DNA from: Candidatus Poribacteria bacterium
GTDB taxonomy: Bacteria > Poribacteria > WGA-4E > WGA-3G
Direction: 5' to 3'
Assembly: GCA_003635315.1 (NCBI GenBank)
Contig: PYJD01000008.1
Location: 62,001 to 126,000 of the forward strand
Length of the DNA: 64,000 bases
Position 1 is the first letter of the stretch. Each line of letters starts with the position of its first letter. A program made the translations under genes and the position numbers. This document shows positions 16,600-53,093 of this stretch, in pieces. The notes under the pieces are model-generated. The model was not told the origin of the DNA. It did not search any database and saw only the letters and a list, made by a program, of their open reading frames with translations.

Positions 16600-17105
16600 A
16601 CTTTTAATCCTAATATACGACAACTTAATAAGGTGCAAAAACAGGTCTTTAATCCTAAATTCCCAGATGATAAATCGTGAAAATGTTGAAATTTTTAATT
16701 CGTCGAAAGAGTGAAAAAAGTTACACTTTTTCCTACATTCTGTAGGATTGAAATTGGTGTAAATTACCCCTCTAACCGATGTCATAGCCTGACTTCACTC
16801 CACCTTGAATAGACTTTATAAGAATTCCCAAAAAGTGTGTTTTTTTTTTGACATTGAATTTTGACAATTACAGCCTGCATAATATAGTTGATTTTTCGAC
16901 ATAAAGATTTTTGTATTTAGGATCATTTTTGTAAATAGTCATCATTTAATCTCTAATTATATACTTCCCATAAAAGTACGGAATTGGAAGATTGGAAGGA
17001 TGGAACTGTGTATGGTGGGTTCAATCCTTACCTACCTTAAAGTGGCTTCTGGTAATGTTAGTTTTTTGAAAAGGTTATTTTCTTCATTTTATTTTACTTT
17101 TATTG
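16600..17105 (+). repeat. Dispersed intergenic element, copy 1
   Basis: About 500 bp that aligns with 47457-48058 and with the reverse complement of 52580-53093. The core (16600-16950) is closest. It contains two TTTAATCCTAA direct repeats (16603-16613 and 16648-16658), hairpin A (16715-16731, AAAAAGT/ACTTTTT), hairpin B directly after it (16732-16746, CCTACA/TGTAGG), and shared blocks such as GAAATTGGTGTAAATTAC and TGTATTTAGGATCATTTTTG. It begins about 196 bp upstream of the subtilase start, pointing away from it. The outer third is weaker but shares an AT-rich TTCTTCATTTTATTTT-like block. Confidence 0.85.
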
Positions 17106-17164
17106 AAAAAGGGTGTAATAAGTGTCATTTTTGCAGTTAACAAAAGTAATATTAATAATTCTTA

Positions 17165-17240
17165 TATGTTTAAAATGTTACACTTTTTGACACATATTGT
17201 GACATTGGTAAAACCGCTGTCCCCTCTGTCACAGTCTTTG
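17165..17240 (+). repeat. Degenerate partial copy of the dispersed element
   Basis: GTTACACTTTTTGACACA and the following imperfect hairpin resemble the hairpin A/B region of the element, closest to copy 3. A CCCCTCTGTCACAG-like segment then echoes the next block of the element. It may be an internal duplication or a fourth, decayed copy. Confidence 0.45.
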
Positions 17241-17412
17241 TTCAAGCGTGTTTTTTTACAATTTTAAAAATTTTGGATTTGTGCGATTTGGTCTCTTACT
17301 TCACCTTTTCTGAAGAATATCAAATACAGACTTTTGTAGGTTAAGCTTTCTTGTTTTTTGTATGATATTGCATGTATTTGATAGTTAGTTAATAGTATAT
17401 TATTGTTATTTG

Positions 17413-17438
17413 AAAAAGTTACGAAATCGTAACTTTTT
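17413..17438. terminator. Hairpin with 11-bp stem, terminator-like on either strand
   Basis: AAAAAGTTACG and CGTAACTTTTT form a perfect stem around an AAAT loop, with an extra T after the right arm. The stem is AT-rich, so it may be a weak terminator or a protein-binding palindrome. The GTTAC...TTTTT sequence echoes hairpin A of the dispersed element. Confidence 0.45.
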
Positions 17439-17767
17439 TCTGTCACCCCAAATTTAGTAACTTGTCTATTAGGTAAGTAGGCACCTATGTTTACAGCCAA
17501 TTTACGAATTTGTAAAAAAAAAATAAAAAAGTGTTCTTGATGGAATCGATAACCCTGAATTCTCCGTTAAGATGTGAGTAAATAGTGATATTTTTATAAT
17601 TTTGTATATAAATTCTTTATTCATAGCTTAGGTATTAGTATAAGTATTGTGATAATTCTCTATCTGTTATTGTAACGTATGTTTTTACTAATGTCAACTA
17701 TTTTACGTATATGTGATATTTGATCTTTCAAATTTCTTCAATTAATTTTGTGTGCTATTTATAAATA

Positions 17768-17825
17768 TGCTACAACCGGCACAATCTAACAGAATGTGCT
17801 ACATCCGGCACAATCTAACAGAATG
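17768..17825. repeat. Tandem direct repeat, 2 x 29 bp
   Basis: Two head-to-tail 29-bp units starting TGCTACAACCGGCACAATC differ at one base (A/T at unit position 8). The unit is much richer in GC than its surroundings. There is no spacer between units, so it is not a CRISPR. Confidence 0.85.
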
Positions 17826-18057
17826 TCTATTATTGGCGAAGGTATTGTATTTTATCTTTATTTTCATTAGAATTGCAATTTTGGATTTAATTTGTTATAG
17901 TTTATCAGTTCGAATTATTTAAAATTTTAGATCTATAATTAGTTCTGTATAGTTTTATTTTAAAGTATACACAAAATATTACATTATTTCAGTAGTATAG
18001 AATCAATGATCTATACAAACAATATACAATCAATATACAATGAGTTAGGAGAAATAA

Positions 18058-19695
18058 ATGAAAGCATCAGAACTGATGGTTAAATGTTTGGAAAATGAAG
18101 ATGTCCAATATATATTCGGTATTCCCGGTGAAGAGAATCTGGATCTGATGGATGCGTTACTTGAATCCGAGATTGAATTCATTCAGACACGAGATGAACG
18201 TGGTGCTGCATTTATGGCGGATGTGTATGGTCGGTTAACGGGTTTGGCAGGCGTATGTCTTGCTACCCTTGGTCCTGGTGCAATGAATCTTGTTACAGGT
18301 GTGGCAGATGCAAACATGGATAGAGCTCCACTTGTCGCTATAACGGGTCAAGCAAGTTTAGATAGGATGCATAAGGAATCACACCAATACCTGGATGTTG
18401 TATCTGTATTTAAGCCGATGACGAAATGGAATACACTCATCCATCTACCTGAGATAATCCCAGAATCAATTAGTAAGGCATTCAAAACTGCAGTGAGTGA
18501 AAAACCTGGTGCAACACATATAGATTTTCCAGAAGATGTAGCGAGTATGCAGATTGATTCAGAACCCATGCGGCATGACTTTCCGAGTGAAGCTGAACCG
18601 GTAGAAGCATGTCTTAAACGTGCTGCCCATCTAATAAATGAAGCCAAACAACCGATTATTCTTGCTGGAAATGGAGCAGTAAGACAAGATGCATCACGTA
18701 TTTTAACCCAATTTGCTGAATTAACAAATATTCCGGTTGCCCATACATTTATGGGAAAGGGGTGTATACCTTGGACCCATAGACTTTCTTTATTGAGTGT
18801 TGGGTTACAAGCACATGATTATGTTTCTTGTGGTTTTGATAGGGCTGATCTCGTGATTGCAGTTGGGTATGATATTGTAGAATACCATCCTCGACTTTGG
18901 AACCCTAATCAAGATAAAAAAATAATACACATTGATACTCAACCCAGTGAGAGTGATTCTTCCTATATCACGGATGTAGAAATGGTTGGTAATATAAAAC
19001 AAAGTCTTAGACATCTGATGAGAGAGGAGATTTATCCGAAAGACTCTGATTATGCATCAAATACTTTAAGAAAGATAATTCTCGATCAATTATCTGATTA
19101 CAGAGAAGATAAAGAATTTCCAATAAAACCACAAAAGATCTTAAGTGATATACGTTCTGTACTTGCAGAAGATGATATTCTAATTTCTGATGTTGGTGCA
19201 CATAAAATGTGGATAGCCAGGATGTATCCTTGCTACCAACCAAATACATGCATTATTTCAAATGGGTTTGCTTCGATGGGAATAGCAGTCCCTGGTGCAT
19301 TTGTTGCTAAACTAATTTATCCTGACCGAAAATGTTTGGCAGTTTGTGGTGATGGGGGATTTCTCATGAACTCTCAAGAGATTGAAACTGCGACCCGTGT
19401 TGGTGTTCCATTTGTCACACTCATTTTCAACGATGAAGCGTACGGACTCATTGAATGGAAACAGATGAATGGTTTTGGCAGACCAGCCCATATAGACTTC
19501 ACCAACCCAGATTTTGTAAAGTATGCTGAGGCGTTTGGTGCAAAGGGTTATCGGGTAGAAGGGAGTGATGAATTGATTCCAATTTTAAATGATGCTTTTC
19601 AACAAAATGTACCCTCTGTCATCGATTGTCCTGTTAATTATGCTGAGAATTTGAGATTGACAGATGAATTAGGACAGCTGACTTGTCCTATATGA
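18058..19695 (+). CDS. Acetolactate synthase-like thiamine-diphosphate enzyme
   Basis: A 545-aa ThDP-dependent enzyme of the acetolactate synthase / AlsS type, expected to condense pyruvate to 2-acetolactate. The three ThDP domains are present. The N-terminal pyrimidine domain has the activating Glu47 (RDERGAAFM). A central domain follows, then the C-terminal diphosphate domain with GDGGFLMNSQEIETA and NDEAYGL (the Asp replaces the usual second Asn). It has no adjacent small regulatory subunit or other ilv genes, so a catabolic AlsS-like role or another ThDP reaction (such as glyoxylate carboligation) fits as well as branched-chain amino-acid synthesis. TTAGGAG seven nt upstream supports the start. 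Confidence 0.85.
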   Translation: MKASELMVKCLENEDVQYIFGIPGEENLDLMDALLESEIEFIQTRDERGAAFMADVYGRLTGLAGVCLATLGPGAMNLVTGVADANMDRAPLVAITGQASLDRMHKESHQYLDVVSVFKPMTKWNTLIHLPEIIPESISKAFKTAVSEKPGATHIDFPEDVASMQIDSEPMRHDFPSEAEPVEACLKRAAHLINEAKQPIILAGNGAVRQDASRILTQFAELTNIPVAHTFMGKGCIPWTHRLSLLSVGLQAHDYVSCGFDRADLVIAVGYDIVEYHPRLWNPNQDKKIIHIDTQPSESDSSYITDVEMVGNIKQSLRHLMREEIYPKDSDYASNTLRKIILDQLSDYREDKEFPIKPQKILSDIRSVLAEDDILISDVGAHKMWIARMYPCYQPNTCIISNGFASMGIAVPGAFVAKLIYPDRKCLAVCGDGGFLMNSQEIETATRVGVPFVTLIFNDEAYGLIEWKQMNGFGRPAHIDFTNPDFVKYAEAFGAKGYRVEGSDELIPILNDAFQQNVPSVIDCPVNYAENLRLTDELGQLTCPI

Positions 19696-19791
19696 ATTGG
19701 ATATCTAAATGAAATGACCCAAATTTAGTAGAATCTGGGTATTATCCGAACATAACCGATATAAATAATTTTTGAAAGGTGATAAACTGAA

Positions 19792-20832
19792 ATGGCTTTT
19801 TCAACAATAGAATGGGATAATGGAAGGATTAAATTGATTGATCAGACATTATTACCAAATGAGTTCAAACATATTTATTGTGAAGATCTCCCATCTATAT
19901 GGGAAGCAATTAAATCTTTACGTGTTCGAGGTGCACCGGCAATTGGGATTGCGGGAGCACTTGGTGCAGTACTCGGTATATGGAATTCATCTGCGGATAC
20001 TTATGAAGCATTTTCATCCGAATTAAAAAAAGCAACGGACTACCTTGCAACATCAAGACCAACTGCAGTTAATTTATTCTGGGCGCTTGATAGAATTACA
20101 CGAACAGCAGAAGAGAATAGTAAGTTATCTATTCCAAAAATAAAGAATATACTTTTGGCAGAAGCACAAGCTATTATAGAAGAAGATAAAGCAATGTGTC
20201 GTGCCATTGGTAAACATGGCATGGCATTACTCAATGAAAATGATACAATTCTAACACATTGTAATGCAGGAGGATTAGCAACATCTGATTATGGAACAGC
20301 CTTGGCAGTTATGTTTAGTGCCCATGAAGCCGGTAAAAAGATAAGTGTTTTTGCTGATGAAACTCGACCATTATTGCAAGGTGCTCGACTCACTACGTGG
20401 GAATTAATGCAAGCAGGTATTGATGTTACACTGATATGTGATAATATGGCAGCCCAAGTAATGAAAGAAGGTAAAATCCAGAATGTAATTGTAGGAGCAG
20501 ACAGAATTGCAGCAAATGGAGACACTGCAAATAAAATTGGGACATATAATGTTGCTATCCTTGCCGAAGTACATGAGATCCCATTTTATGTTGCAGCACC
20601 AACTTCAACACTTGATTTTAATCTTAAGACTGGTGCAGAAATTCCAATTGAACAACGTTCCTCTGAAGAAGTAACGGAAGGGTTTGGTCAGGTAACAGCC
20701 CCAGAAGGGGTGAAAGTTTATAGTCCTGCTTTTGATGTTACCCCTGCTTCCTTAGTCACAGCCATTATAACGGAGAAAGGAGTTGCACACCCACCATTTA
20801 CTGAGAGTCTTAGGTTAATGTGTCAACAATAG
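19792..20832 (+). CDS. mtnA: Methylthioribose-1-phosphate isomerase
   Basis: Converts S-methyl-5-thioribose 1-phosphate to methylthioribulose 1-phosphate in the methionine salvage pathway. At 346 aa it is of normal length. Visible signatures are VRGAPAIGIAGALG, the catalytic Cys157 in HCNAGGLAT, DETRPLLQGARLT, and the catalytic Asp237 in VGADRIAANGDTANKIGT. A GAAAGGTGAT sequence lies upstream of the ATG. It follows the acetolactate-synthase-like gene by 96 nt and converges on the amidohydrolase gene 15 nt beyond its stop. No other mtn genes are present in the window. Confidence 0.95.
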   Translation: MAFSTIEWDNGRIKLIDQTLLPNEFKHIYCEDLPSIWEAIKSLRVRGAPAIGIAGALGAVLGIWNSSADTYEAFSSELKKATDYLATSRPTAVNLFWALDRITRTAEENSKLSIPKIKNILLAEAQAIIEEDKAMCRAIGKHGMALLNENDTILTHCNAGGLATSDYGTALAVMFSAHEAGKKISVFADETRPLLQGARLTTWELMQAGIDVTLICDNMAAQVMKEGKIQNVIVGADRIAANGDTANKIGTYNVAILAEVHEIPFYVAAPTSTLDFNLKTGAEIPIEQRSSEEVTEGFGQVTAPEGVKVYSPAFDVTPASLVTAIITEKGVAHPPFTESLRLMCQQ

Positions 20833-20847
20833 TATGACATTATTAAC

Positions 20848-22137: not shown

Positions 22138-22262
22138 TTGTCTACTCCTTATTATCCTGTTATGAAGAATATCAATTGGGTGTCAATTAATTTGCGTAAT
22201 TATAAGTACTCAAATAAATGGAATATTGTTATGATTAAATTGATTGAAATAGAAATTCAACC

Positions 22263-22292
22263 TTGACAAATGAACTTAGTATAATGTACTAT
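22263..22292 (+). promoter_or_regulatory. Sigma-70-like promoter upstream of the cold-shock/Hfq-like fusion gene
   Basis: TTGACA at 22263-22268, an 18-nt spacer and TACTAT at 22287-22292. An overlapping TATAAT lies at 22290-22295. It would start a leader of about 235 nt. Confidence 0.5.
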
Positions 22293-22298
22293 AATAAC

Positions 22299-22534
22299 CA
22301 TTGTAAATGTAATAACATTAATTTTCTATATTCTTTGAATATGTGTATAGGTGTTTGTATATTGGTATTTTTATATTCAAGTTTGATTTTATTCTATTAT
22401 AGGTAATATCTTTTGTTGTGTCAAAAGAAACATGTAACATATTAAAAAAATGAACAACTTCCATCTTTTCCCTCCACCAATTAACATTAACTTTAGACAT
22501 CTTCCCAATTTCAAGAAAGACGCAGGAGCATAAA
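22299..22534 (+). other. Long untranslated leader of the cold-shock/Hfq-like fusion gene
   Basis: About 235 nt lie between the likely promoter and the ATG with no plausible coding frame on the + strand. It ends in a strong AGGAG site. Long structured leaders are known for cspA-type mRNAs, where they give temperature control. I see AT-rich, possibly foldable sequence here but no specific conserved box. Confidence 0.4.
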
Positions 22535-23458: not shown

Positions 23459-23459
23459 G

Positions 23460-24056: not shown

Positions 24057-24098
24057 GTAAGATTGATTTCAATCACTATCTTCTGTTTAATTTAGAAG

Positions 24099-24116
24099 GA
24101 TTGCCTTTAGGCAATC
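24099..24116. terminator. Bidirectional terminator hairpin between convergent genes
   Basis: GATTGCC and GGCAATC form a perfect 7-bp stem around TTTA, followed by GTTTA. It lies between the YkgJ-type gene stop and the DUF971 gene stop. Confidence 0.6.
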
Positions 24117-24118
24117 GT

Positions 24119-24424: not shown

Positions 24425-24469
24425 TTTAATTTAATGTATGCCGATCTGAAGAACGCTGTTTAGAATCCT

Positions 24470-38012: not shown

Positions 38013-41000
38013 ATGAATAGTGATAACCCCAGTATTAGACAAGAACTTCATGCTGCTCGTGAGAAATTACTTGATCTAACATTACGAAACAAACTCCTAA
38101 ATTATAGAACGAGTAAGCTAAGAACAATTCAGGTGGTTGATGAGATTCCAAAGGAGATATTTGATATTCTTGTTCTAAATGAACATGGAATGCATTTTAA
38201 ACATAGAGACAAAAATGAAATAGATTCTACTTTCGAATCTCCTGAAGAAAATGAAAATGTTAAAATGCCATGGTTATATGTTGAAGATGTATCAACCCAT
38301 CAGACCGACAAACTTCTTCAAACTGATTTACCAATAGAGGATCTTCAGAAACGTCTATATTATATTCATCAACAAGCACGTTCAGTGTTTGAGGAGCAGG
38401 GATATTCTGTATTACATCTTGCTCTTGGATTCCTCAAATGGTTTGATCGAGAAAATACCGAAAAAGAAAATATTGCCCCCCTTCTATTAATCCCAGTAGA
38501 ACTTGAACGTGGTAGGAATCGATCGCAATTTACATTGAAATGGAGTCAAGCGGATCTTGTGCCCAATCTATCGCTTGAAGCCAAACTTGCTGATCAAGGC
38601 ATTTCACTACCTATATTTGATAATCCCGAAGAAAAGAATGAAATCGATGATTATTTTCATGCTGTAGGTGATACAGTATCAAATTACAGTAATTGGCAGG
38701 TAATACCAGATATATTCCTGGATTTCTTCAGCTTTACTAAATTTGTGATGTACAAGGATTTAGAACCTGGTTTATGGGATGTGAGTGATCATCCTTTACT
38801 GGGTAGCGTATTAGGTGGTGGAGAAAATGGAACAGTTAATGAGGATTTTAATGCAGATGAAGTAGATAAAATCTTGTCAAGTGAGAATGTCTATCATGTT
38901 ATGGATGCTGACTCATCTCAAATTGCAGCAATTGAAGAGATAAAAAGCGGGAGAAATCTGGTGGTTGAGGGACCACCAGGAACAGGAAAATCACAAACAA
39001 TAACGAATATAATTGCTGAGCTGCTATCTATGGGTAAGAAGGTATTATTTGTTAGTGAAAAAATGGCAGCACTTGAGGTGGTAAAACATCGACTGGATAA
39101 TGTTGGATTAGGTGAATTCTGTTTAGAGCTACATAGTCATAAGTCAAATAAGAGAGAAGTATTGCAGGAATTAGAACGGACTATGTCAGCACAAATTAAA
39201 GCCAGTAATGGAGAGATAGATACGTTTAGACAACTTGACCTGTTAAAGACAGATTTAAATGGCTATGTAAGTGGCATACATTCTCCTATAGGACATACCC
39301 AAAAATCTTTGTTGTCAGCTTTTATTATACGCGAAGAAGCAAAGGAACATTTTAGTAGTAATAACAGAGAACTACCGAGTATAAGATTTCCTGACCCAAG
39401 CGAATCAGATCTGAGTGCTTGGGATGAAGCAATAAGACAATTAGAAAAAATCTCAGCCATAATGCCGCGTGTTTCGCCTATCTCAGAACATACATGGCGA
39501 GGTTGTTTAACAGGGATTATAACACCAGAAAAAGAGGAACTGATATATAAACATATTATAGATTTACAAGATGCTTGTAATAAAGTATATACAGTTTTTT
39601 CTCATTTAGAAACTGAATATGGTATTCGTTCACCCAAAAACCTTGAATCCATTAAACATCATCTCATGGCTGCAGATATTGTAGATAATTCATTTTCGGT
39701 AAAACCTGAAGTATTATTAAACCAAAAGTGGGATACATTTCATGAAGAAGCAAAAGATCTAATTCAAAAAGTAGAGATAATTGCCGAAGCAAAGAAAAAA
39801 TTTATGGCATGGACTTTGGAAACTGATCCAAGATTGAAACTTGATACTGATTATATAATGAAACTTGCTGAAGAATATGAGAAGTATTATTACCTTCCTC
39901 GATTGAAAAGATTCCTAAGTTGGCGTTATAGGAAAGAGATAAAGTCCCCAATCAAGAGTTATTTTAAACAATCTATGCCAAAAGAACCGGATACTCTTAG
40001 AGCTGACCTAAGAGAATTATCGGATTGTATAAATATGATGGATCAGATGGAATGGGAAATGGCTGCGACTCAAAAAGGTCCATCACTTTTTGGTAAACAG
40101 TGGAAAGACGATGATAGTGATCCAGAAGAGTTAATAAAATTCGGAGAATGGATTGTTACATTTCGGCAGTTTCTCCGAGATGGAACATTTACTGAAGAAT
40201 CTGTAAATATCGTGAGTAAAGGAACATTCGAAACTCCACTGAGATCTATAAAAGACTATTTGGATTTGGCAATTAATGAATTTAAAAAGCACCGTGATCT
40301 ATTATATGAATGTTTAGGAACGGATTCCCAATCCATCTTTGACACAGATCCTGAGTTAGTCTTCTTTAGTGATCTTGATTGTCGACTTGAATTATGGCAA
40401 AAGGAAAGGGGTAAATTACATACTTGGGGACAATTTTCAGAATTAATGATTGGTTGTAAGAATACGATTGCAGTACAAATGCTTGAAAATATTCATAAAC
40501 TAAATCCTGAAGACCTTGTTCCATGTTTTAAGGCAAACTATACAGAATCCCTCCTACACGATTCTATTTTAAAGAACCAGTCATTGAGAGAATTTGTTAC
40601 AGAGATACATGAGAAAAAGATTACAGATTTTCAACACCTTGATACTACCAGTCTTGATTTAAATAGAATTAGACTTATTGCAGAACTACAGCAACAACGA
40701 CCACGGTTATTCACCGGAGCATCAAAAGAATCTGAAATTGGAATCCTGCAAGGGCAATTCAACCGAAAACGTGGTCATATGCCAATTAGAAAATTGCTAT
40801 CTGTTGTGGGAGGGTTGGTACAACGAATCAAACCGTGTTTTATGATGAGTCCACTGTCTGTTGCCCAATTTTGTGATCCTGTTAATATTGATTTTGATGT
40901 TATTGTTTTTGATGAAGCAAGTCAAATAAGACCTGAAGACGCACTTGGTGCAATGTTAAGAGCAAAACAGTCTGTTGTATTAGGAGATACAAGACAACTA

Positions 41001-42764
41001 CCCCCAACCCGGTTCTTTGATAGTATTGTTGAGGATGCCAGTCAGGATGATGATGAAGATTACAACACGACGATAAAGGATGTTGAGAGTATATTGCATC
41101 AATGTAGACAGAGTTTCCCGGTTAAACAGTTAAAATGGCACTATAGAAGTAGACATGAATCTTTGATAGCCATATCAAATCAAGAATTCTATGAGAATGA
41201 TTTATTAATATTTCCTTCCCCATTTGATAATACGGAACACTTAGGGCTTAAGTTTGTGCATATACCAGAGTCAGTCTATAGTAGAGGGGGAAGTTCAGCA
41301 AATATAATTGAAGCTGAAGCAGTTGTTCAAGCTGCAATTGCGCATTATCGAAATTATCCTGATAAGAGTATGGGGATAGGCACTTTTAATATGAGCCAAC
41401 AGCAGACAATACTTGATGAAGTAGAACGTCAATTACATTTCAACCCGGAAATGAATGAGTTTTTTGCAAGAACACGTGATGAACACTTCTTTGTCAAAAA
41501 CCTTGAAACAATACAAGGTGATGAACGTGATACAATATTTCTTAGTATTGGTTATGGTAAAGATGAAAATGGTAAGTTATATAGAAATTTTGGTCCATTG
41601 AATCATGAAGGAGGAGAACGTCGATTAAATGTCCTTATTACGCGTGCTCGTGAAAAATGTGTGGTTTTCTGTAATTTTCGTGCAAGTGATCTTCAATTAG
41701 ATGCTAATGCCCCATTTGGCACAAGAGCATTGAAGATGTTTCTTGACTATGCTGAAAATAGAAACAGTGTAAGCAGTAGCAATTATGAGAGTGAGATGGA
41801 TGCCCCATTTGAGGATGCCGTCTATGAGTATATTCAGAGTCATGGATATGACATGCGTAAACAGGTTGGATGTGCGGGGTATAGAATTGACCTTGGCATA
41901 ATAGATCCAAATTCTCCTGATCGTTACTTAATTGGTATTGAGTGTGATGGTAAACAGTATTTTAATGCACCGGTTGCAAGAGACAGAGACCGGTTACGTC
42001 AACAGGTCTTAACAGGGTTAGGTTGGAAATTACATAGAGTATGGTCAATGGAGTGGTACCAAGACCGTGAGAATACAAAGCAACGATTGTTGACAGCAAT
42101 TGAAAAAGCAAAAGTCTCTACCCCTCCAGAACTCTTCCCAACCCCTGAATCAGGGGATGTAGAGATAAAGGTTGAGAGTGAGTCTGAGATTGAGAGTGAA
42201 TCTGTTGTTCTAACGAATCCTGAACCATCTATTCCTGACTATATCGAATGTGATGATTTGGGTATACCAATCTATGGGGAATTGCATCTACAGGATGGAA
42301 TTAATATTGCTGAGGCAGTATCAAATGTGGTAAATGTAGAGAGTCCAGTACATTTAGATCAGGTAGTTATTCGTATACGTACTCTATGGGGGTTAGCAAA
42401 AGCAGGAAATAGAATTAGAATGGCTATTGAAAATGGGGTTTATATTGCAGAAAAAGCCAATCTCATACAAAGAAGAGGAGCTTTTCTTTGGTCTGTGAAT
42501 CATGAAGATATACAGGTACGGAAACGTGAAAAACCTAAAATAGAATGGATTTGTGAAGAAGAAATATATGAGGCACTTACACTGGTATTAACATTACAAG
42601 GAGCAATTACACTGGAATCACTCATTTCTGAAGGAGTGAAATCATTTGGATATAAAGCGACAAGCAATTCCGTTGCCGCGTGTGTGAAGGACATTGTTAA
42701 TGAGCGAATTAAAGATGGTGATTTAGAACAAATCGGAAATGGGATGATACAATCATCCCGTTAA
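38013..42764 (+). CDS. DUF4011 superfamily 1 helicase with Vsr/MTES-type nuclease domain; probable defence protein
   Basis: A 1583-aa multidomain protein. Residues 5-30 (AAREKLLDLTLRNKLLNYR) are the DUF4011 signature. The SF1 helicase core has Walker A GPPGTGKS at 320-327, Walker B DEAS at 967-970, GDTRQLPPTRFF, and the late motifs TIQGDERDTIFLSIGYG and RRLNVLITRAREK. Next comes a PD-(D/E)xK nuclease of the MTES_1575/Vsr-like type with D1293 and ECDGK at 1310-1314. The C-terminal 250 residues hold DUF3320-like winged-helix segments. DUF4011-helicase-Vsr proteins (Hhe) are reported antiphage factors. AAGGAG lies 12 nt before the ATG. It is alone, with no methylase beside it. The defence role is inferred from the family. 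Confidence 0.9.
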   Translation: MNSDNPSIRQELHAAREKLLDLTLRNKLLNYRTSKLRTIQVVDEIPKEIFDILVLNEHGMHFKHRDKNEIDSTFESPEENENVKMPWLYVEDVSTHQTDKLLQTDLPIEDLQKRLYYIHQQARSVFEEQGYSVLHLALGFLKWFDRENTEKENIAPLLLIPVELERGRNRSQFTLKWSQADLVPNLSLEAKLADQGISLPIFDNPEEKNEIDDYFHAVGDTVSNYSNWQVIPDIFLDFFSFTKFVMYKDLEPGLWDVSDHPLLGSVLGGGENGTVNEDFNADEVDKILSSENVYHVMDADSSQIAAIEEIKSGRNLVVEGPPGTGKSQTITNIIAELLSMGKKVLFVSEKMAALEVVKHRLDNVGLGEFCLELHSHKSNKREVLQELERTMSAQIKASNGEIDTFRQLDLLKTDLNGYVSGIHSPIGHTQKSLLSAFIIREEAKEHFSSNNRELPSIRFPDPSESDLSAWDEAIRQLEKISAIMPRVSPISEHTWRGCLTGIITPEKEELIYKHIIDLQDACNKVYTVFSHLETEYGIRSPKNLESIKHHLMAADIVDNSFSVKPEVLLNQKWDTFHEEAKDLIQKVEIIAEAKKKFMAWTLETDPRLKLDTDYIMKLAEEYEKYYYLPRLKRFLSWRYRKEIKSPIKSYFKQSMPKEPDTLRADLRELSDCINMMDQMEWEMAATQKGPSLFGKQWKDDDSDPEELIKFGEWIVTFRQFLRDGTFTEESVNIVSKGTFETPLRSIKDYLDLAINEFKKHRDLLYECLGTDSQSIFDTDPELVFFSDLDCRLELWQKERGKLHTWGQFSELMIGCKNTIAVQMLENIHKLNPEDLVPCFKANYTESLLHDSILKNQSLREFVTEIHEKKITDFQHLDTTSLDLNRIRLIAELQQQRPRLFTGASKESEIGILQGQFNRKRGHMPIRKLLSVVGGLVQRIKPCFMMSPLSVAQFCDPVNIDFDVIVFDEASQIRPEDALGAMLRAKQSVVLGDTRQLPPTRFFDSIVEDASQDDDEDYNTTIKDVESILHQCRQSFPVKQLKWHYRSRHESLIAISNQEFYENDLLIFPSPFDNTEHLGLKFVHIPESVYSRGGSSANIIEAEAVVQAAIAHYRNYPDKSMGIGTFNMSQQQTILDEVERQLHFNPEMNEFFARTRDEHFFVKNLETIQGDERDTIFLSIGYGKDENGKLYRNFGPLNHEGGERRLNVLITRAREKCVVFCNFRASDLQLDANAPFGTRALKMFLDYAENRNSVSSSNYESEMDAPFEDAVYEYIQSHGYDMRKQVGCAGYRIDLGIIDPNSPDRYLIGIECDGKQYFNAPVARDRDRLRQQVLTGLGWKLHRVWSMEWYQDRENTKQRLLTAIEKAKVSTPPELFPTPESGDVEIKVESESEIESESVVLTNPEPSIPDYIECDDLGIPIYGELHLQDGINIAEAVSNVVNVESPVHLDQVVIRIRTLWGLAKAGNRIRMAIENGVYIAEKANLIQRRGAFLWSVNHEDIQVRKREKPKIEWICEEEIYEALTLVLTLQGAITLESLISEGVKSFGYKATSNSVAACVKDIVNERIKDGDLEQIGNGMIQSSR
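42741..42759. terminator. Strong hairpin at the 3' end of the helicase gene
   Basis: GGGATGAT and ATCATCCC form a perfect 8-bp stem around ACA. It lies within the last codons, five nt before the end of the stop codon, and is followed by GTTAAAAC. It sits in the short gap between convergent genes and could stop transcription from either side. Confidence 0.5.
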
Positions 42765-42786
42765 AACTTATGAGATTGATAGTGAA

Positions 42787-43635
42787 TTAAGAAGCCACTG
42801 CATCTCCACCTATATTCTCTTGTATCCATGCTCTAAGTGGTACATCCTTATCTCCGGGTGATGTATACCCCATCCCACCAGTACTCTTACCAAGGATTTG
42901 TTGTCGAATTGGATCAGACTTATCCATATAATGTTCTACAGTCATGTTATCACGGGGTTGTAGCCATCTATAACTATATCCGTAGAACAACACTTTTCGC
43001 GTAATATCTGATGTATTACGACCCACCGCATGCCACAATCTACGATCAAAAAAGACAGCGGTTCCAGGCTTTGCATAAACAGGCTTTGCATTTGCAGGAT
43101 CTGTTCTATCATCAGCAGGCATTTGTAAACTATTCAATTTCTGACTACCCGGTATGACACTAAAATTCCCGCGACCTGGCACAGATGTATCTGTCAGAAA
43201 GTATGCAACTTTAAGTGAAACCCGTGGACGAGGATTACCTTCAAGTTCAATATTTAGTCGTCCACTATCCTGATGCCATCCGAGTCGTCTTTTTTTCTCT
43301 CTTTCTTCTTCAGGCATAGGTGGTAATGCGATCAGATGTGAATGATAGAGTTTTATATTCCATCCTAAAATACCCCATACCTTTGGAAAAGTCTTATACC
43401 AATCCAACAATTCTATGAAAATCTCATCTCTACCGACAAAGTCAAGAATATTAAAACTGGCATCAGATGGTAATTCGTCCTTTCCAAGATGTTCTGCACC
43501 CACACGATCAAATGCAGCTATCAACTTCTCAACCTTATCTTCAGGTATAGCATCTTCTACTATAATGAAACCATTGTCTTCAAATTTCTGTTTTTCATCT
43601 TCTGTTAAACAGTATTCTAAACATTGGATATCCAT
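42787..43635 (-). CDS. Phytanoyl-CoA dioxygenase (PhyH) family protein
   Basis: A 282-aa Fe(II)/2-oxoglutarate oxygenase. HxD is in LGWHQDSGRLNIE and the distal His is in LWHAVGRNTSDITRK, with the nearby Arg for 2-oxoglutarate. The clear segment FFLTDT-like (VAYFLTDTSVPGRGNFSVIPGSQ) is typical of the family. GGAG eight nt upstream supports the start. It is the end of a reverse-strand run, 22 nt after the SUMF1-like gene. This is the third PhyH-family gene in the window, and the three differ strongly from one another. Confidence 0.9.
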   Translation of the reverse strand: MDIQCLEYCLTEDEKQKFEDNGFIIVEDAIPEDKVEKLIAAFDRVGAEHLGKDELPSDASFNILDFVGRDEIFIELLDWYKTFPKVWGILGWNIKLYHSHLIALPPMPEEEREKKRRLGWHQDSGRLNIELEGNPRPRVSLKVAYFLTDTSVPGRGNFSVIPGSQKLNSLQMPADDRTDPANAKPVYAKPGTAVFFDRRLWHAVGRNTSDITRKVLFYGYSYRWLQPRDNMTVEHYMDKSDPIRQQILGKSTGGMGYTSPGDKDVPLRAWIQENIGGDAVAS

Positions 43636-43657
43636 AAGTCACTCCTATTCAACGATG

Positions 43658-44797
43658 TTAGAATGGATTATACTTAGAGGTAGGTTTGCCTTCGATTTTT
43701 CTTAGAGAATCTAATTCATTTGCCTGAGAATTCCGTTTAAGTCTTTTTGAGTAAAACTGTCTGATTCTATTCATAGAAAACCATAATCTCCAATAATTCA
43801 CCCCAGCAGTAAACAGAAAACCCAGTCCTATAATTCCGAATGTAATACCACCGAAAATCCATTCAGGTTTTCTGATACTGCCCCATACTGAAGAAAGAAT
43901 TAAGAATAGAGCAATTAATGTATCTATAACACTGTTCTTTCTCGACCGTTTTTTTATGACATGAAGGTTGTTTTGTTTTTTCTTCTGTATGTATTCTTCA
44001 ACTTGTTCTATTTTAATCTGAACCGGATTCGGTGAACTGACTTCAATATCTTGAACACATCTGAAGCCGATGTTATCTCCCATATAATCGGGTGGTGAAT
44101 ATAAACGATTAGCACACCGATAGTATCGTTCTGCAGTTCCATCACGTGCCTCTAACCATGAACCACCTCTTAATACCAGATCATTTGAAATATTATCATC
44201 TTGTGATCTATTATTATTAGAATCAGGATAGGATTGATATGCATCTGATGTCCATTCCCATACGCTACCGACAACATCACACACACCATACGGACTAATA
44301 TTCTTATCGTATGTTCCTATAGGTGTTAATTCAGTTGAAAAATAGTTAGAATCCTCAGTTAATGTAAATCTGGATTTAGGAACATCAGGATTAAAAATAT
44401 CTCCCCATGGATAGATTCTTCCGTCTGGACCTCGTGCAGCTTTTTCCCATTCAGCTTCAGTTGGTAATCTTTTCCCTATCCATTCTGCATAAGACTGACA
44501 ATCGAACCAATTCACCTGTACCACAGGTTTATTTTCATCTTTTGGTGATATCTCCCCTTTTATCCAATGTGAAGGTGGTGGATGACCTGTTTCTCTAACA
44601 AACACAGCATACTCGGCATTAGTAACAGGATATTTGTCTATACAGTATGCCTCTAAATGTCGTGCATGGATAGGTGCTTCATCTGGTTTTGCATATCTAC
44701 ACTGTTTTAAAATAGTGCCATAGAACGATTCAAAATCTGTCCCCATAATAAATGCACCGGCAGGAATAAGAACAGTGGAGTTGTTTGTTTCAACCAT
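43658..44797 (-). CDS. SUMF1-like (formylglycine-generating fold) protein with C-terminal membrane anchor
   Basis: A 379-aa protein. Residues 8-255 form the FGE-sulfatase / C-type-lectin-like fold: IPAGAFIMGTD, RLPTEAEWEKAARGPDGRIYPWGD, GSVWEWTSD, LVLRGGSW and the closing GFRCVQ. After a basic linker, residues about 288-345 contain two hydrophobic helices (LIALFLILSSVWG and IFGGITFGIIGLGFLFTAG), so it is membrane-attached. The LC...YC pair that forms the active site of true formylglycine-generating enzymes after RGGS is replaced by LEARDGTAERYYRC, so it probably does not make formylglycine. No sulfatase is nearby. It is co-directional with PhyH and the lipoyl-ligase gene. Confidence 0.85.
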   Translation of the reverse strand: MVETNNSTVLIPAGAFIMGTDFESFYGTILKQCRYAKPDEAPIHARHLEAYCIDKYPVTNAEYAVFVRETGHPPPSHWIKGEISPKDENKPVVQVNWFDCQSYAEWIGKRLPTEAEWEKAARGPDGRIYPWGDIFNPDVPKSRFTLTEDSNYFSTELTPIGTYDKNISPYGVCDVVGSVWEWTSDAYQSYPDSNNNRSQDDNISNDLVLRGGSWLEARDGTAERYYRCANRLYSPPDYMGDNIGFRCVQDIEVSSPNPVQIKIEQVEEYIQKKKQNNLHVIKKRSRKNSVIDTLIALFLILSSVWGSIRKPEWIFGGITFGIIGLGFLFTAGVNYWRLWFSMNRIRQFYSKRLKRNSQANELDSLRKIEGKPTSKYNPF

Positions 44798-46226: not shown

Positions 46227-46390
46227 AATACTACTCCATATTAGAATTTTAGGGAATTGTAAGTACAATAAAAAAATGTGTCAAGTTATTTTGATCTCAA
46301 GTAGATTCCCTGAACAGCAGCAGTGTGAGTAGACCTTGGGGCTTAAATTAAGCGGATGACAGCTCTGTAAAAATAGAATAGTGTGGGTAA

Positions 46391-47302
46391 TTATCTTTTT
46401 TTCAACGTACCCCAGACCGTAGTCAACTTATCTTTATGTTCCACAGCGAGACCTGTATTAGATTGATAATTTTGATTGATTTCTGCTTCAGTTAGGGGTC
46501 GATCGTAAATGCGGACTTCATCAATTATCCCGTTAAAAAAGCCTTCGGCTTTACCACGATTATTTCCAGCACCAAGATACACAGGATCAGTGAATGGCAC
46601 ATATTTGTATTGAGCATTTTTAACTAATGGATTAAACACTGAAATCCGATTCAGAGTTCCATCAATAAAAAACGCGCGTTCAGTCTGTTCTGCCCCGTTC
46701 TTATCTACAGGTTTAGTCGTATAGACGAGGTGATGCCATTCACCATCTGAAATTGGATATTCACCCCTAAGAAAGGAAAGTGAACACCCATTTTTATTTT
46801 TAAAAAGAGATGGCAAATAAAGTTGAATGAAATCCTCTGTAAAAATAATCCGAGGACCAAAAGGATCGAGCTTAAGATCTTCGAGATCAACCATCTTTCT
46901 GTTAATATCTATTCCCCATATCATAACCGATTTATCACAGTTGCTGCCTATAGTTTTGATAATTGTTGACCAATTGTCTTTGTAATCGGTTTTAATCCAT
47001 GCTTCAAACGTAGAATGATCGAGTTTAGCACCAAAATCGCCAAGCGTCGTGAGATTCACATAATCTTTGATACCATCAAATTTAAGGGCATCTTTCAGGT
47101 GTCCTTTGACAATTGATGGGTTTCCTACGATGGTTGCATTGTTTTCACCCCACACGTCTTTGACTGTATTATCAACAATATCACTTTGATCAAAGGTCCA
47201 ATAACTTATAAGTCCATCGGTTACGATATTCTCCGCGACTGTAATGCCACCCAACCCAACAATAAATACAGCGAGTGTCAAAACAATGATGAGTGATTTC
47301 AT
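46391..47302 (-). CDS. Exported LamG / concanavalin A-like lectin protein
   Basis: A 303-aa exported protein. A signal peptide (MKSLIIVLTLAVFIVGLGGITVA) is followed by a LamG jelly-roll: LISYWTFDQSDI, GKHLKDALKFDG-like block, STFEAWIKTD, DGEWHHLVYTT and the closing GIIDEVRIYDRPLTEAEI. Such domains bind carbohydrates or serve as adhesion modules. The ATG at 47302 has AAGGA eight nt upstream, so an earlier in-frame TTG is rejected. Element copy 2 begins about 155 bp upstream. There is no sorting domain at the C-terminus. Confidence 0.88.
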   Translation of the reverse strand: MKSLIIVLTLAVFIVGLGGITVAENIVTDGLISYWTFDQSDIVDNTVKDVWGENNATIVGNPSIVKGHLKDALKFDGIKDYVNLTTLGDFGAKLDHSTFEAWIKTDYKDNWSTIIKTIGSNCDKSVMIWGIDINRKMVDLEDLKLDPFGPRIIFTEDFIQLYLPSLFKNKNGCSLSFLRGEYPISDGEWHHLVYTTKPVDKNGAEQTERAFFIDGTLNRISVFNPLVKNAQYKYVPFTDPVYLGAGNNRGKAEGFFNGIIDEVRIYDRPLTEAEINQNYQSNTGLAVEHKDKLTTVWGTLKKR

Positions 47303-47456
47303 AACAATTTTCCTTGTCATATACGGTAAAAGGTTGATGCTCAAAAAGTGTTGAGTGAATTTATAACATACTAACGTTTCAAATTCTACTTAAAAAATAT
47401 ATGAATACATACCTAAATTTCTAGAAATAGCATTAGATCTAATGGTCATAAATTGA
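47303..47456. other. Spacer between the LamG gene and element copy 2
   Basis: AT-rich stretch with no gene. It should hold the LamG gene's proximal 5' region, but I see no clear promoter boxes in it on the minus strand. Confidence 0.4.
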
Positions 47457-48058
47457 ATATTTAATCCTAATATCTCGACATCCTAATAGGGTGCAAAAAC
47501 AGACCTTTAATCCTAAATTCCCTGATGAAAAATTGTGAAAATGTTAAATTTTTCAATTCGCTGAAAAAGTGAAAAAAGTTACACTTTTTCCTACATTTTG
47601 TAGGATTGAAATTGGTGTAAATTACCCCTATAACCTCTGTCATAGACTGACTTTACTCCACTTTGAATTGACTTTTAAGAATTTTCAAAAAGTGTGATTT
47701 TGTGTTTTTGTTGTCCTTGCGAATTTTGACAATTTCAACATGGGTATTATAGTAGATTTTTTGACATAAATAAAGTTGTGGTATTTAGGATCGTTTTTAT
47801 AGATTTTCATCATTAATTCTCTTATTATTTCATTCTCATTAAGGTTATGATTTTGAAGTAGGATTTTCTCATATCATCTAAATATTATGATTCAATTTGT
47901 GCTATGTAATATATGTATGTTAACCTAATTTACCCCAATAAATTTTAATACTTGGAAACACTGTCTTAAATGAATATGCAGATGTTTTACAATATTATGT
48001 ATTGTTAGTTGAAAGATATTGAAATCTTCTTCATTTAATTTTCAACTTTTATTAAAGT
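47457..48058 (+). repeat. Dispersed intergenic element, copy 2
   Basis: About 600 bp aligning with copies 1 and 3. It has the paired direct repeats TTTAATCCTAA at 47460-47470 and 47506-47516, hairpin A at 47573-47589 and hairpin B at 47590-47604. It shares GAAATTGGTGTAAATTACC and TGTGTTTTTGTTGTCC with copy 3, and a distal block CATTAAGGTTATGATTTTGAA with copy 3 as well. It begins about 157 bp upstream of the LamG start, pointing away from it, and ends about 120 bp before the Hen1 promoter. Confidence 0.88.
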
Positions 48059-48176
48059 ATGTATGTAATCAGCATTTGGTAGGTTTTTTACTCATGTTAT
48101 TTAGCATTAATAATTACTGTGATAGAACTGTCTGAAAAACTAAGGCTAAATACCCCTGTATTGTAATAAGTAGCAC

Positions 48177-48205
48177 TTGACAGTATCAACTTAACTAAGT
48201 ATAAT
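48177..48205 (+). promoter_or_regulatory. Perfect consensus sigma-70 promoter of the hen1-pnkp operon
   Basis: TTGACA (48177-48182), exactly 17 nt, and TATAAT (48200-48205), 50 nt before the hen1 ATG. Both hexamers are full consensus, so strong constitutive transcription is expected unless a repressor acts. Confidence 0.75.
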
Positions 48206-48255
48206 GAAAGTCGGTAATGTATCAGTAATACCCTATCTAAGAATACCTGATCAGA

Positions 48256-49653: not shown

Positions 49654-49656
49654 ATC

Positions 49657-52215
49657 ATGCAAATTAAAATACCCAACCCTTCTCTTGTAATACTCATAGG
49701 ACCTTCAGGTTCAGGGAAATCCACATTTGCAAAACAGCATTTTAAATCCACTGAGATTCTCTCATCAGATTTTTGTCGAGGGATTGTCTCTGATGACGAA
49801 AATGATCAATCTGCTACTGAAGATGCATTTGATGTCTTACACTATATCGCTGCAAAAAGACTTGCAGCTGGTAGGTTAACGGTAATTGATGCTACAAATG
49901 TACAAGTAGAAGCAAGAAAGAAATTACAGGATTTGGCACGTCAGTATCATTATCTTACTGTTGGTATAGTAATGAATATGCCTGCCAAACTATGCCAAGA
50001 GAGGAATGAGCATCGTGAGGATAGAAATTTTAAACCCTATGTCATACGCAAACAGATTAGTCAACTCCGTCGGTCAATCCGATCACTAAGACGTGAAGGT
50101 TTCCGTAACTTTGTATATATACTATCATCACCTGAAGAAGCAGAAAATGCAGAAATTGTAAGACAACCTTTATGGACTAATCTGAAAGAATATCACGGTC
50201 CATTCGATATAATTGGGGATGTTCATGGGTGTTATGATGAGCTCATTTTATTACTTGTAGAATTGGGTTATGAAATTCCATCAGAACAAGGAACACCTAT
50301 TTCACATCCAGATGGTAGAAAAGTCGTTTTTCTTGGTGATTATGTGGATAGAGGACCAAAGGTTGTCAATGTACTGAAGTTAGTTATGAAGATGCACCAA
50401 GATGGAATTGCATTCTGTGTTCCGGGGAATCATGATGTCAAACTTGCTCGTGCTTTGAGAGGTAAAAATGTTACGACTACCCACGGATTAGCAGAATCAC
50501 TATCACAATTAGAGAATGAGTCCGATGAATTTAGAGAACAAATTGCTGATTTCATAGAAGGATTGATTAGTCACTATGAACTTGATGATGGGAAATTAGT
50601 TGTTGCACATGCCGGCATGAAAAGAGAATACCAAGGTAGGGCTTCCGGTCGTGTTAGAGAATTTGCACTATATGGAGAAACCACAGGAGAGACAGATGAA
50701 TTTGGGTTACCCATTCGGCTGGACTGGGCAGAGGAATACCGAGGGGATGCAACTGTTGTCTATGGACACACACCCGTTAACGAACCACAATGGATTAACA
50801 GGACGATTAATATTGATACAGGATGTGTTTTTGGCGGAAACCTGACAGCATTACGATATCCAGAAAAAGAACTGATATCTATTGCTGCAGAAAAGACATA
50901 TTATGAACCAGCAAAACCGTTAATTGAAGATGATACCGTCCAAAGTTCACACGAATCGTATCTGAATGAAGGTGTATTAGATATAACCGATGTGTTAGGT
51001 AAACGAATCATCAATACAAGATTGTATCGTAGTATTACAATTAGAGAAGAAAATACTATACCCGCGTTGGAATCTATCAGTCGTTTTGCAGTTGATCCGA
51101 GATGGCTTATTTATCTCCCGCCTACAATGTCTCCTTCTGAAACAAGTTCAAAACCAGATTTTCTTGAACATCCATCTGATGCCTTCAATTATTATAGGAA
51201 TCAAGGTGTACCCAGCATAATTTGGCAAGAAAAACATATGGGTTCAAGGGCAATTGTCATTGTCTGTAAGGATCAAACAATTGTACAGAGACGTTTTGGT
51301 ATCCCATCAGAGTCTATTGGGGTATGTTATACACGTAATGGAAGACCATTTTTCGATGATATTGACCTTGAATCACAACTCCTAAAACAAATTAAACATG
51401 CAATAGATAAACTTGACTATTGGGAGAAATTGGATACAGATTGGATCTGTCTTGATTGTGAATTAATGCCGTGGTCAGTCAAGGCACAAGAACTGTTACG
51501 ACAACAATATGCACCTGTAGGAGTTGCTGGAAGTGTATCCATTTCAGATGCATTGGCTTCAATTGAAATGGCAAAGAACAGAGATATTGATACAGTTGAC
51601 ATGTTAGACGATTTTGTAAAACGCCAGAATGCAGTGAATGAATATATTAAATCGTATCAACAGTATTGTTGGGATGTTGAATCCATATCTGATATAAAAC
51701 TTGCACCTTTTCACTTATTAGCAACGGAAAGTAAAGTATATATCAATAAAGACCATTTGTGGCATATGGAAATGCTCCAGGAATTATGTGAAGCTGTTGA
51801 AGATGATATTCTATATTTAACTTCTTATGGATTAGTTACACTATCTGATGAAAACAGTGAGAATACTGCAATAGAAAAATGGGTAGAACTTACCAAAAAG
51901 GGTGGGGAAGGTTTTGTCGTAAAACCTTTGGATTTTATTACACAAGGAAAAAAAGGTATTGTTCAACCAGCAGTGAAATGTCGTGGCAGAGAATATCTAC
52001 GCATTATTTATGGACCAGAATACACTATGCCAAGATATTTAGAACGACTTCGTTCCAGGGGATTGTCTAAAAAACGGTCACTTGCGATACGAGAATTCAC
52101 TTTAGGTATTGAAGCACTGGAAAGATTTGTCAGAAATGAACCGTTTTCAAAAGTACATGAGTGTGTCTTTGGCATTTTAGCTTTGGAAAGTGAATCAGTA
52201 GATCCGAGGCTATAA
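49657..52215 (+). CDS. pnkp: Polynucleotide kinase-phosphatase-ligase of the Pnkp-Hen1 RNA repair system
   Basis: Heals and seals broken RNA. The 852-aa chain has the three known domains. The kinase (1-170) has the P-loop GPSGSGKS with K21 and S22, plus D38 and R41, the positions I recall as catalytic in the Clostridium thermocellum enzyme. The metallophosphatase (about 180-420) shows GDVHGC, GDYVDRG, GNHD and the late GHTP. The C-terminal adenylyltransferase/ligase (about 480-852) has the nucleotidyl lysine in EKHMGSRA and later GEGFVVKP. The length is close to the 870 aa of the model. It is coupled to hen1. Confidence 0.97.
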   Translation: MQIKIPNPSLVILIGPSGSGKSTFAKQHFKSTEILSSDFCRGIVSDDENDQSATEDAFDVLHYIAAKRLAAGRLTVIDATNVQVEARKKLQDLARQYHYLTVGIVMNMPAKLCQERNEHREDRNFKPYVIRKQISQLRRSIRSLRREGFRNFVYILSSPEEAENAEIVRQPLWTNLKEYHGPFDIIGDVHGCYDELILLLVELGYEIPSEQGTPISHPDGRKVVFLGDYVDRGPKVVNVLKLVMKMHQDGIAFCVPGNHDVKLARALRGKNVTTTHGLAESLSQLENESDEFREQIADFIEGLISHYELDDGKLVVAHAGMKREYQGRASGRVREFALYGETTGETDEFGLPIRLDWAEEYRGDATVVYGHTPVNEPQWINRTINIDTGCVFGGNLTALRYPEKELISIAAEKTYYEPAKPLIEDDTVQSSHESYLNEGVLDITDVLGKRIINTRLYRSITIREENTIPALESISRFAVDPRWLIYLPPTMSPSETSSKPDFLEHPSDAFNYYRNQGVPSIIWQEKHMGSRAIVIVCKDQTIVQRRFGIPSESIGVCYTRNGRPFFDDIDLESQLLKQIKHAIDKLDYWEKLDTDWICLDCELMPWSVKAQELLRQQYAPVGVAGSVSISDALASIEMAKNRDIDTVDMLDDFVKRQNAVNEYIKSYQQYCWDVESISDIKLAPFHLLATESKVYINKDHLWHMEMLQELCEAVEDDILYLTSYGLVTLSDENSENTAIEKWVELTKKGGEGFVVKPLDFITQGKKGIVQPAVKCRGREYLRIIYGPEYTMPRYLERLRSRGLSKKRSLAIREFTLGIEALERFVRNEPFSKVHECVFGILALESESVDPRL

Positions 52216-52579
52216 CCATGATTTAATTCTGTAAATTCAACATAGTTATAAAAAAATGAAGAAAAAATAATAAGACCCATCATACATTTAAAATTGTATT
52301 ACCATCGAAAATTAGACCACTACATAAGACAAGATTGTTATATATTCTCAGTCCAATTAGAAAGGGTAGTTTGAACGCAAAATCAAGAATCTTTATACAA
52401 TTATTTTAGCTGAAGTTGTTATGGAAGCAAATACTCGTAGTGGACAATTTATTCAACAGGTATATAACCAAAAACCATATTCGTCTAAAAAATTAATTGA
52501 CATCTATTGAATTTGAGATAACACACTTGTCTTAAGGTAATGAATTATGGTCAAAAAGACGATGACAGTTTCCATTTCT
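52216..52579. other. Gene-free stretch after pnkp
   Basis: AT-rich sequence with no open frame of note. TATAAC and GTTATA near 52214-52247 could form a weak, long-looped hairpin before an A-run after the pnkp stop. Nothing else is recognisable before element copy 3. Confidence 0.5.
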
Positions 52580-53093
52580 TAAAAAAATAAAATAAAATGA
52601 AGAAAATATATATACCTAACATCTAACATACATATTCTACAAAAGCACAATATCTATTTAAAGTTGTTTCCAGGATAATAGAAGATTTTGATTCAAAATC
52701 ATAACCTTAATGACAAATATCTAATATCAGAAAAATGATGAATATCTACAAAAATGATCCTAAATACAAAAATCTATTTATGTCAAAAAACTGTCCTAAT
52801 TTGCCAGTTGAAAATGTCAAAATCATGTAGGACAACAAAAACACAAAATACCATTTTTTGGAAATTCTTAAAAAGTCAATTCAAAGTACCGTAAAGTCTC
52901 TCTGGTACAGGGGTTATAGAGGTAATTTACACCAATTTCAATGACACACAATGTGTCAAAAAGTGTAACTTTTTTCAAATTTTTGACAAATTGATGAATA
53001 ATACATTGACACGATTTACCTTATGAGTATTTAGGATTAAATGCCTGTTTTTGCACCCCATTTCTTGACTGGATATTAGGATTAAATGTGTGT
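52580..53093 (-). repeat. Dispersed intergenic element, copy 3 (inverted)
   Basis: About 510 bp aligning in reverse with copies 1 and 2. On the + strand the direct repeats read TTAGGATTAAA at 53031-53041 and 53076-53086. Hairpin B (52943-52957) reads GACACA/TGTGTC, a different sequence from the other copies but fully paired. Hairpin A (52958-52974, AAAAAGT/ACTTTTT) is conserved. An extra 9-bp inverted repeat TGTCAAAAA (52954-52962) / TTTTTGACA (52980-52988) would compete with both. The element ends about 150 bp before the beta-helix lipoprotein gene. Confidence 0.88.

Follow-up and report, generated by a model that had tools for sequence, protein, structure and literature searches.

The window analyzed here, a 64,000-nucleotide stretch of a Candidatus Poribacteria genome (contig PYJD01000008.1, positions 62,001 to 126,000), contains three copies of a non-coding element, each facing a protein-coding gene. 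We found that these copies belong to a large superfamily of repeats for which sequence comparison indicates turnover between sister species, a locked orientation and a position upstream of promoters. Tentatively, we favor the explanation that this is a mobile non-coding superfamily that has lodged upstream of promoters in one direction and may act in cis as an upstream module. Binding of proteins to its conserved boxes and an action on the adjacent promoter would be part of such a function.

The three window copies are members of a family of 69

The initial annotation of the window, made from the sequence alone, described an element of 500-600 bp present three times. This element is real, but the three copies are part of a family with 69 members (class I). 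The three stretches align with a mean column identity of 69% (1152-column alignment including flanks), and long invariant runs fall within the first ~400 bp. All three have the same orientation relative to the neighboring gene, which encodes a subtilase with a Por secretion tail, a LamG protein and a NosD/beta-helix protein, respectively. As described initially, each contains in the same order two TTTAATCCTAA repeats that enclose GGTGCAAAAACAG at a distance of 45-46 bp from each other, a hairpin and GGTGTAAATTACC. The paired 11-mer (TTTAATCCTAA-N20-50-TTTAATCCTAA) had 62 exact matches in the 4.33-Mb genome of this Poribacteria-type bacterium (G000) and none in the reversed control, excluding a chance origin. 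A covariance model built from 29 copies, which were originally picked by the paired 11-mer, detected 69 strong copies (113.8-208.6 bits). It is unlikely that mutated class I copies were missed, because a gap in scores separates 166 from 114 bits. The most constant part of class I comprises ~400 bp, with right ends that vary beyond it.

We read the element from TTTAATCC to TTACAC. Its main features are boxes 1 and 2, the T-box with an adjoining two-state palindrome, and box 3; boxes 1 and 2 and box 3 are inverted copies of one motif. Beyond copy 1, the window holds another member of the superfamily, of a different class (class III, T-box at 17177-17188). The features are as follows, with element edges taken from the pairwise coverage between copies:

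16603..17002, + strand: class I copy 1, constant ~400-bp part (model match C8:78603-78773, 195.9 bits); faces the subtilase gene at 12375-16403 (- strand); repeat edges -128 to +1243, a span whose right side takes in the class III copy
16603..16613, + strand: copy 1 box 1, TTTAATCCTAA, near-invariant in 68 copies
16648..16658, + strand: copy 1 box 2, TTTAATCCTAA
16720..16731, + strand: copy 1 T-box, GTTACACTTTTT, least variable run in classes I, II and III
16732..16746, + strand: copy 1 two-state palindrome, CCT/AGG version
16915..16924, + strand: copy 1 box 3, ATTTAGGATC (inverted)
17150..17500 (end of the part read), + strand: class III copy beyond copy 1, same orientation (C8:79150-79203, 27.4 bits)
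17413..17438, unstranded: perfect 12-bp inverted repeat AAAAAGTTACGA..TCGTAACTTTTT, terminator-like, common to class III copies
47416..48081, + strand: class I copy 2 with repeat edges -44 to +621 (C8:109460-109631, 196.2 bits); faces the LamG gene at 46391-47344 (- strand)
47460..47470, + strand: copy 2 box 1
47506..47516, + strand: copy 2 box 2
47578..47589, + strand: copy 2 T-box
47590..47604, + strand: copy 2 two-state palindrome, CCT/AGG version
47783..47792, + strand: copy 2 box 3 (inverted)
52573..53099, - strand: class I copy 3 with repeat edges -13 to +513 (C8:114916-115086, - strand, 184.3 bits); faces the beta-helix gene at 53244-54131 (+ strand)
53076..53086, - strand: copy 3 box 1
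53031..53041, - strand: copy 3 box 2
52958..52969, - strand: copy 3 T-box
52943..52957, - strand: copy 3 two-state palindrome, GAC/GTC version
52756..52765, - strand: copy 3 box 3 (inverted)

Class I belongs to a superfamily found in two sister species

The model gave 72 further, weaker matches, down to 22.9 bits. We took in the surroundings of all 69 class I copies and of 70 of these 72. The weaker matches examined fell into two classes with different outer sequence, 25 of class II and 45 of class III, numbers that are lower bounds because 150 of 3578 first-look candidates were scored. Classes I-III have in common a core of AAAAnGTTACACTTTTT followed by the palindrome nnnACATTnTGTnnn; less regular core parts are GTAA after the palindrome and then another palindrome, which reads CCAGT..ACTGG in class II and some class III copies. 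A loose pattern of this core matched 137 times in this genome, 91 times in the sister species (G011, very probably the metagenome-assembled genome SB0202) and 0-2 times in each of 95 others, with 0-2 matches for the reversed control. Extending the covariance-model search to relatives, as the initial annotation had proposed, yielded 25 matches in SB0202 at E<=0.01 and none in 16 of the 17 other genomes of the genus. The SB0202 copies have the same core in variants of their own, the commonest being type IV. Scanning a sequence collection with a similar pattern returned at least 72 stretches among the matches listed, 25 from SB0202 and the rest from many unrelated records. Judged by these searches, the superfamily is restricted to the two sister species among the genomes searched. 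A viral origin was rejected, as the nine IMG/VR stretches with the paired 11-mer have no T-box or box 3 nearby.

The terminal repeats of a plain miniature transposon, which the initial annotation had named as an outcome against its reading, were not seen: the copy ends are ragged, and the search for a family-wide terminal inverted repeat found none. Its statement that no described element matches agrees with the literature listings searched, which contained nothing that we recognized as this element.

Several observations concern the make-up of the copies. Gene-sense open frames of up to 198 amino acids run through class III copies (e.g. L211 and L216) and resemble translated repeat DNA. A ~115-bp module with ATACCATTTCT..AGAAATGGTAT-like ends lies to the left of 23 class I-type sites (e.g. 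window 16475-16600); it stands in the opposite orientation beside 28 other sites and is inverted inside class III (+130 to +300). Because this module occurs in both orientations, the intergenic regions are mosaics that include inversions. At one SB0202 locus (G011:C58 ~42130-42289; L061/L111) the copy stops directly after GTTACACTTTTT, and an open frame past the broken copy looks, by eye, like a sigma-factor-type helix-turn-helix.

Elements are locked in orientation relative to genes

With genes called by an open reading frame (ORF) script, the left neighbor was transcribed away from the element in 66 of 69 class I copies; the right neighbor was on the minus strand in 40 and on the plus strand in 29. 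Left neighbors were also on the minus strand in 20 of 24 class II and 41 of 45 class III cases that could be called. Since divergent gaps cannot reveal orientation, tandem gaps (ORFs >=100 amino acids) served as the test. One orientation predominated by 39 to 1 in class I (p=7e-11) and by 34 to 4 in classes II and III (p=6e-7). Of the SB0202 sites whose left gene could be called, 35 of 36 agreed in orientation; among these sites, one is a chance intragenic match (L324 +1658) and one the second T-box of a single copy (L333). Stacks of different classes, all in the same orientation, were present at several loci. An element was present in 70 of the 148 tandem gaps of >=300 bp, in 41 of the 70 divergent ones and in 1 of the 16 convergent ones, in a sample biased by the choice of regions for holding elements.

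As a control, repeats of >=60 bp common to tandem gaps were counted in a relative with a one-contig genome (G009; 400 kb), where they were not locked (23 vs 15 pairs). The same count in stretches of G000 gave 1769 vs 336 pairs, which are not independent of each other. In the G009 segment (G009:C1:1000001-1400000; L361-L380), 40 intergenic regions form one cluster through shared short repeats (~60-230 bp alignments), which occur in both orientations relative to genes.

Placement relative to genes was non-random, unlike the scatter that the initial annotation had named as an outcome against its reading. By these gene and promoter predictions, the elements sit between the neighbor's own promoter region and the next gene in a fixed orientation. 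Such nearly uniform one-way placement before the promoters of unrelated genes points to mobile DNA that either seeks out promoters or influences them.

Native promoter-like sites lie next to many elements

Between the element edge and the start codon, a promoter-like pair of >=9 bits was present in gene sense in 19 of 51 testable class I copies, compared to 2 of 51 on the other strand. Its -35 box was located -6 to 52 bp from the edge in 11 of these 19 and 86-162 bp away in 8. At ileS, a similarity of 86% between the two species extends across the gene and a TTGACA..TATCAT-like promoter and is lost just upstream of the promoter, where the repeat starts in this genome. At rpsB, the species are 88% similar up to a few bases from the sister's element. 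Both genes retain their native promoter. Promoter-like pairs also occur inside the elements. A conserved one in gene sense is carried by 15 of 25 class II copies, and 36 of 69 class I copies have one at +206 that points rightward. A role of the elements as mRNA leaders appears unlikely, because they lie upstream of native promoters in the testable cases.

The superfamily turns over between sister species

A 776-bp region with a class I copy on contig C7 corresponds to 22 unaligned bases in SB0202 (L357), and ~1040 bp on C23 correspond to ~81 bp. The C7 site, the best of the empty sites, lies between two divergent promoter-like sites, and its 22 unaligned bases blur the junction and any target duplication. 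The reverse case, elements in SB0202 and none in this genome, was also found (L316 vs L159, L300 vs L133). Moreover, six orthologous genes bear elements of different class in the two species, namely rpsB, ileS and the pairs L225/L291, L233/L340, L176/L318 and L231/L351; in the last four the sister copy is of type IV. These comparisons indicate that the family moves or is turned over, and they bear out the initial suggestion of a mobile element or shared upstream region. In being non-coding, multi-copy (69 in class I) and present or absent at orthologous sites, the family resembles miniature transposons.

No mobilizing enzyme was found in a search limited to the Y1_Tnp and Phage_integrase families. 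Y1 transposase matches numbered 4 in each carrier and 0-6 in 16 non-carriers, and tyrosine recombinases were not peculiar to the two carriers. Inspection of the enzyme regions on C43, C30, C149 and C184 revealed no T-box alongside, and the Y1 transposase copies of G000 that were inspected had neither a T-box nor a TTTAATCC pair beside them. G010, of the same genus and 73% complete, has 17 tyrosine recombinase matches, compared to 0-6 in the other 17 genomes. Both carriers have a gene for a small tyrosine recombinase close to one for a Y1 transposase (L393, G000:C43 ~41000-44500; L395, G011:C149); at L393 the two genes lie amid many ~25-bp repeats of type GGGGATTCCGATCCCCGATCTTC.

Boxes are conserved in diverged copies

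Class I divergence was calculated for 68 of the 69 copies (C36:79472 left out). The median distance from the consensus was 9.9% (range 6.4-20.2%), and pairwise identity averaged 84.1%, with 92.3% for the closest pair. The only runs of >=7 bases with less than 2% divergence were TTAATCCTAATAT, TTTAATCCTAAAT, GTTACACTTTTT and ATTTAGGATC. Box sites diverged by 0.34%, compared to ~11% elsewhere, and carried fewer private variants per site (0.19 vs 0.58, p=6e-5). In classes II and III, too, no long run varies less than GTTACACTTTTT. Such near-invariant boxes in copies that are ~10% diverged support the initial view that the copies are old and that their shared parts are kept by selection. Association between sites (r2) fell from 0.29 at <=3 bp to 0.02-0.03 past 30 bp, so short-tract exchange or local multi-base change is likely. 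In the class I tree, 86% of the length lies in terminal branches, a value to be read with caution because of this short-range decay.

The palindrome beside the T-box exists in two states. Among the 68 class I copies, the left arm was CCT in 25 and of GAC type in 43, including a single GGC. The CCT arm was always paired with its own right arm and never combined with the right arm of the GAC type, nor was a GAC-type left arm combined with the right arm of CCT; 5 of the 43 GAC-type palindromes carried a single mismatched middle position. Association of the state with other sites was near expectation (13 of 221 tests below 0.05, ~11 expected), and identities within and between the two groups were 0.787, 0.787 and 0.786. 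The two arms change together, independently of the rest of the element. Both versions are present in classes II and III, and SB0202 adds GTC/GAC.

Target genes are functionally mixed

A Pfam scan covering 105 of 112 left genes returned 205 families, the commonest being Laminin_G_3 with 6 members. Verified targets include rpsB, rpsL, ileS, lepA and purD. Common ancestry of the target genes was rejected, since many element-bearing genes have no homologue among the 299 left- and right-neighbor proteins. Some of these 299 cluster; between species, the rpsB products are 94% identical and other left-gene matches at most 33%.

Competing explanations

The explanation we favor proposes that the element lodges just upstream of an existing promoter in one fixed orientation. 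Its T-box and its other boxes, in which the TTTAGGAT motif stands twice in direct and once in inverted orientation, would be protein sites, and the palindrome beside the T-box a protein site or a hairpin; candidate protein-bound sequences are TTTAGGATTAAA and the T-box/palindrome. By acting in cis on the promoter next to it, the element may serve as a portable module for upstream control or insulation, and single orientation would persist because of this action. In its favor we count the orientation lock (39:1, 34:4 and 35/36 in SB0202, with the G009 control unlocked), together with the promoter-like sites (19/51 vs 2/51), the constrained boxes and the six promoters with elements of different class. 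Several findings weigh against it. Outside the element, a strong promoter-like site is missing in 32 of the 51 testable copies; the target genes lack functional coherence, and two orthologous sites (C7 and C23) are wholly without an element. None of the 13 class I-like SB0202 loci with a callable left gene is orthologous to a class I target here, so no single gene seems to need the element. In addition, given short-tract exchange, conservation of the boxes could mirror an active population rather than the resident copies.

A close rival, in our estimate somewhat unlikely, is a selfish non-autonomous element without host function, whose integration is steered to promoters by bound polymerase or melted or supercoiled DNA and whose boxes are sites of the mobilizing enzyme. 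It accounts for turnover as well as or better than a cis-acting module. In its favor are empty sites and complete turnover between sister species, unrelated targets with essential genes among them, same-orientation stacks with different classes at one locus, and confinement to two species; two direct boxes with one inverted box resemble subterminal enzyme sites. It explains less well the conservation of boxes in long-resident copies, since a dead copy should decay, yet boxes are intact in copies at most 92% identical to any other. Furthermore, Y1 transposases and tyrosine recombinases are not carrier-specific, those inspected lack a flanking element, and no target duplication or sharp common ends could be made out in the copies compared. 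The choice between the cis-acting module and the selfish element turns on whether new insertions are one-way.

Unlikely, too, is a bolder version in which a class of elements integrates at promoters, one way and just upstream of the polymerase footprint, exchanges its palindrome arms as a unit between copies and would constitute an upstream control module spreading to >100 genes. This would be a bacterial counterpart of promoter-targeted retrotransposons.

Quite improbable is a small RNA gene read away from the neighbor, with a folded T-box domain and the GTTACGAAATCGTAAC-T6 inverted repeat as terminator. The T-box domain of classes I and II does fold better than shuffled sequence (mean z -2.0 to -2.8, 12 copies each; neighboring parts near 0), but similarly on both strands, and class III reaches only -1.0 to -1.4 (12 copies). 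Pair counting in 29 sequences found 23 cells changed on both sides, compared to 5.9 in shuffles, at three pairs. However, this evidence for a hairpin is modest because the paired changes essentially amount to two haplotypes. A mismatch at an arm position occurs in 5 of the 68 class I copies. A terminator-like inverted repeat is present in classes II and III, and the rightward promoter-like site at +206 in class I could drive such a gene, except that it lies downstream of the folded domain. Rfam gave no matches at the gathering threshold within the 64-kb window, and strand-telling mismatches (3 vs 2) were uninformative.

We give very little weight to ordinary miniature transposons tolerated where harmless and placed by lack of space only. 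The intergenic regions here are rich in other repeats, and the stretch from the upstream gene to the promoter may be the only neutral place that a tandem gap offers. Shortage of space, however, cannot set orientation (39:1, 34:4), and the G009 repeats are unlocked; convergent gaps, where pneumococcal repeats accumulate according to PMC3049150, were occupied in 1 of 16 cases of the biased sample.

Least probable of all is the initially proposed regulatory leader for exported or surface proteins: the three window genes all look exported, but signal-peptide-like N-termini (called by a simple, crude hydrophobicity rule) occurred in 29 of 66 class I targets vs 131 of 392 other genes (p=0.12; 27 of 66 vs 112 of 392, p=0.059, without plain membrane anchors), in 3 of 13 class II and just 5 of 33 class III targets, and the targets include ribosomal proteins and a tRNA synthetase. 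We therefore rejected an exported-protein regulon; the excess of such genes among class I targets was not significant, and the link seen in the window is a small-sample coincidence.

Relation to known systems

Mobile promoters, or promoter propagation, are repeated upstream regions before unrelated genes. The present elements resemble them in this respect, but here the native promoter is retained and the element lies upstream of it where this can be tested. A full-text literature search for 'putative mobile promoters' returned no papers. The yeast elements Ty1 and Ty3 direct insertion to just upstream of the start sites of Pol III genes. Placement just upstream of start sites is similar; Ty1 and Ty3 are, however, eukaryotic, coding and reverse-transcribing, whereas the elements here are non-coding, and no such machinery was identified.

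According to PMC3049150, the pneumococcal repeats BOX, RUP and SPRITE are over-represented between convergent genes and mostly <200 bp. They share with the present superfamily ~100 modular, AT-rich, hairpin-bearing intergenic copies per genome, a mosaic structure and possible effects on neighboring genes. In contrast to them, the elements here avoid convergent gaps (in our sample), face promoters one way and measure 400-900 bp. REPINs with their RAYT are likewise dispersed, non-autonomous extragenic hairpin sequences copied within a lineage, and REPIN doublets are reportedly distributed at random in extragenic space (PMC3116915); unlike for REPINs, no specific Y1 transposase was found here in the genomes and loci inspected. 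IS5 upstream of fucAO illustrates that a mobile element can alter operon expression (PMC11894529), but it is a single event involving a coding element, in contrast to a family of >100 copies locked in orientation.

Dispersed bacterial repeats usually sit where harm is least. A family that is locked in orientation upstream of the promoters of unrelated genes, ribosomal ones among them, and turns over between sister species would represent a mobile element in search of promoters or else a regulatory layer that spreads fast. Either, if true, would alter how intergenic repeats in uncultured bacteria are interpreted.

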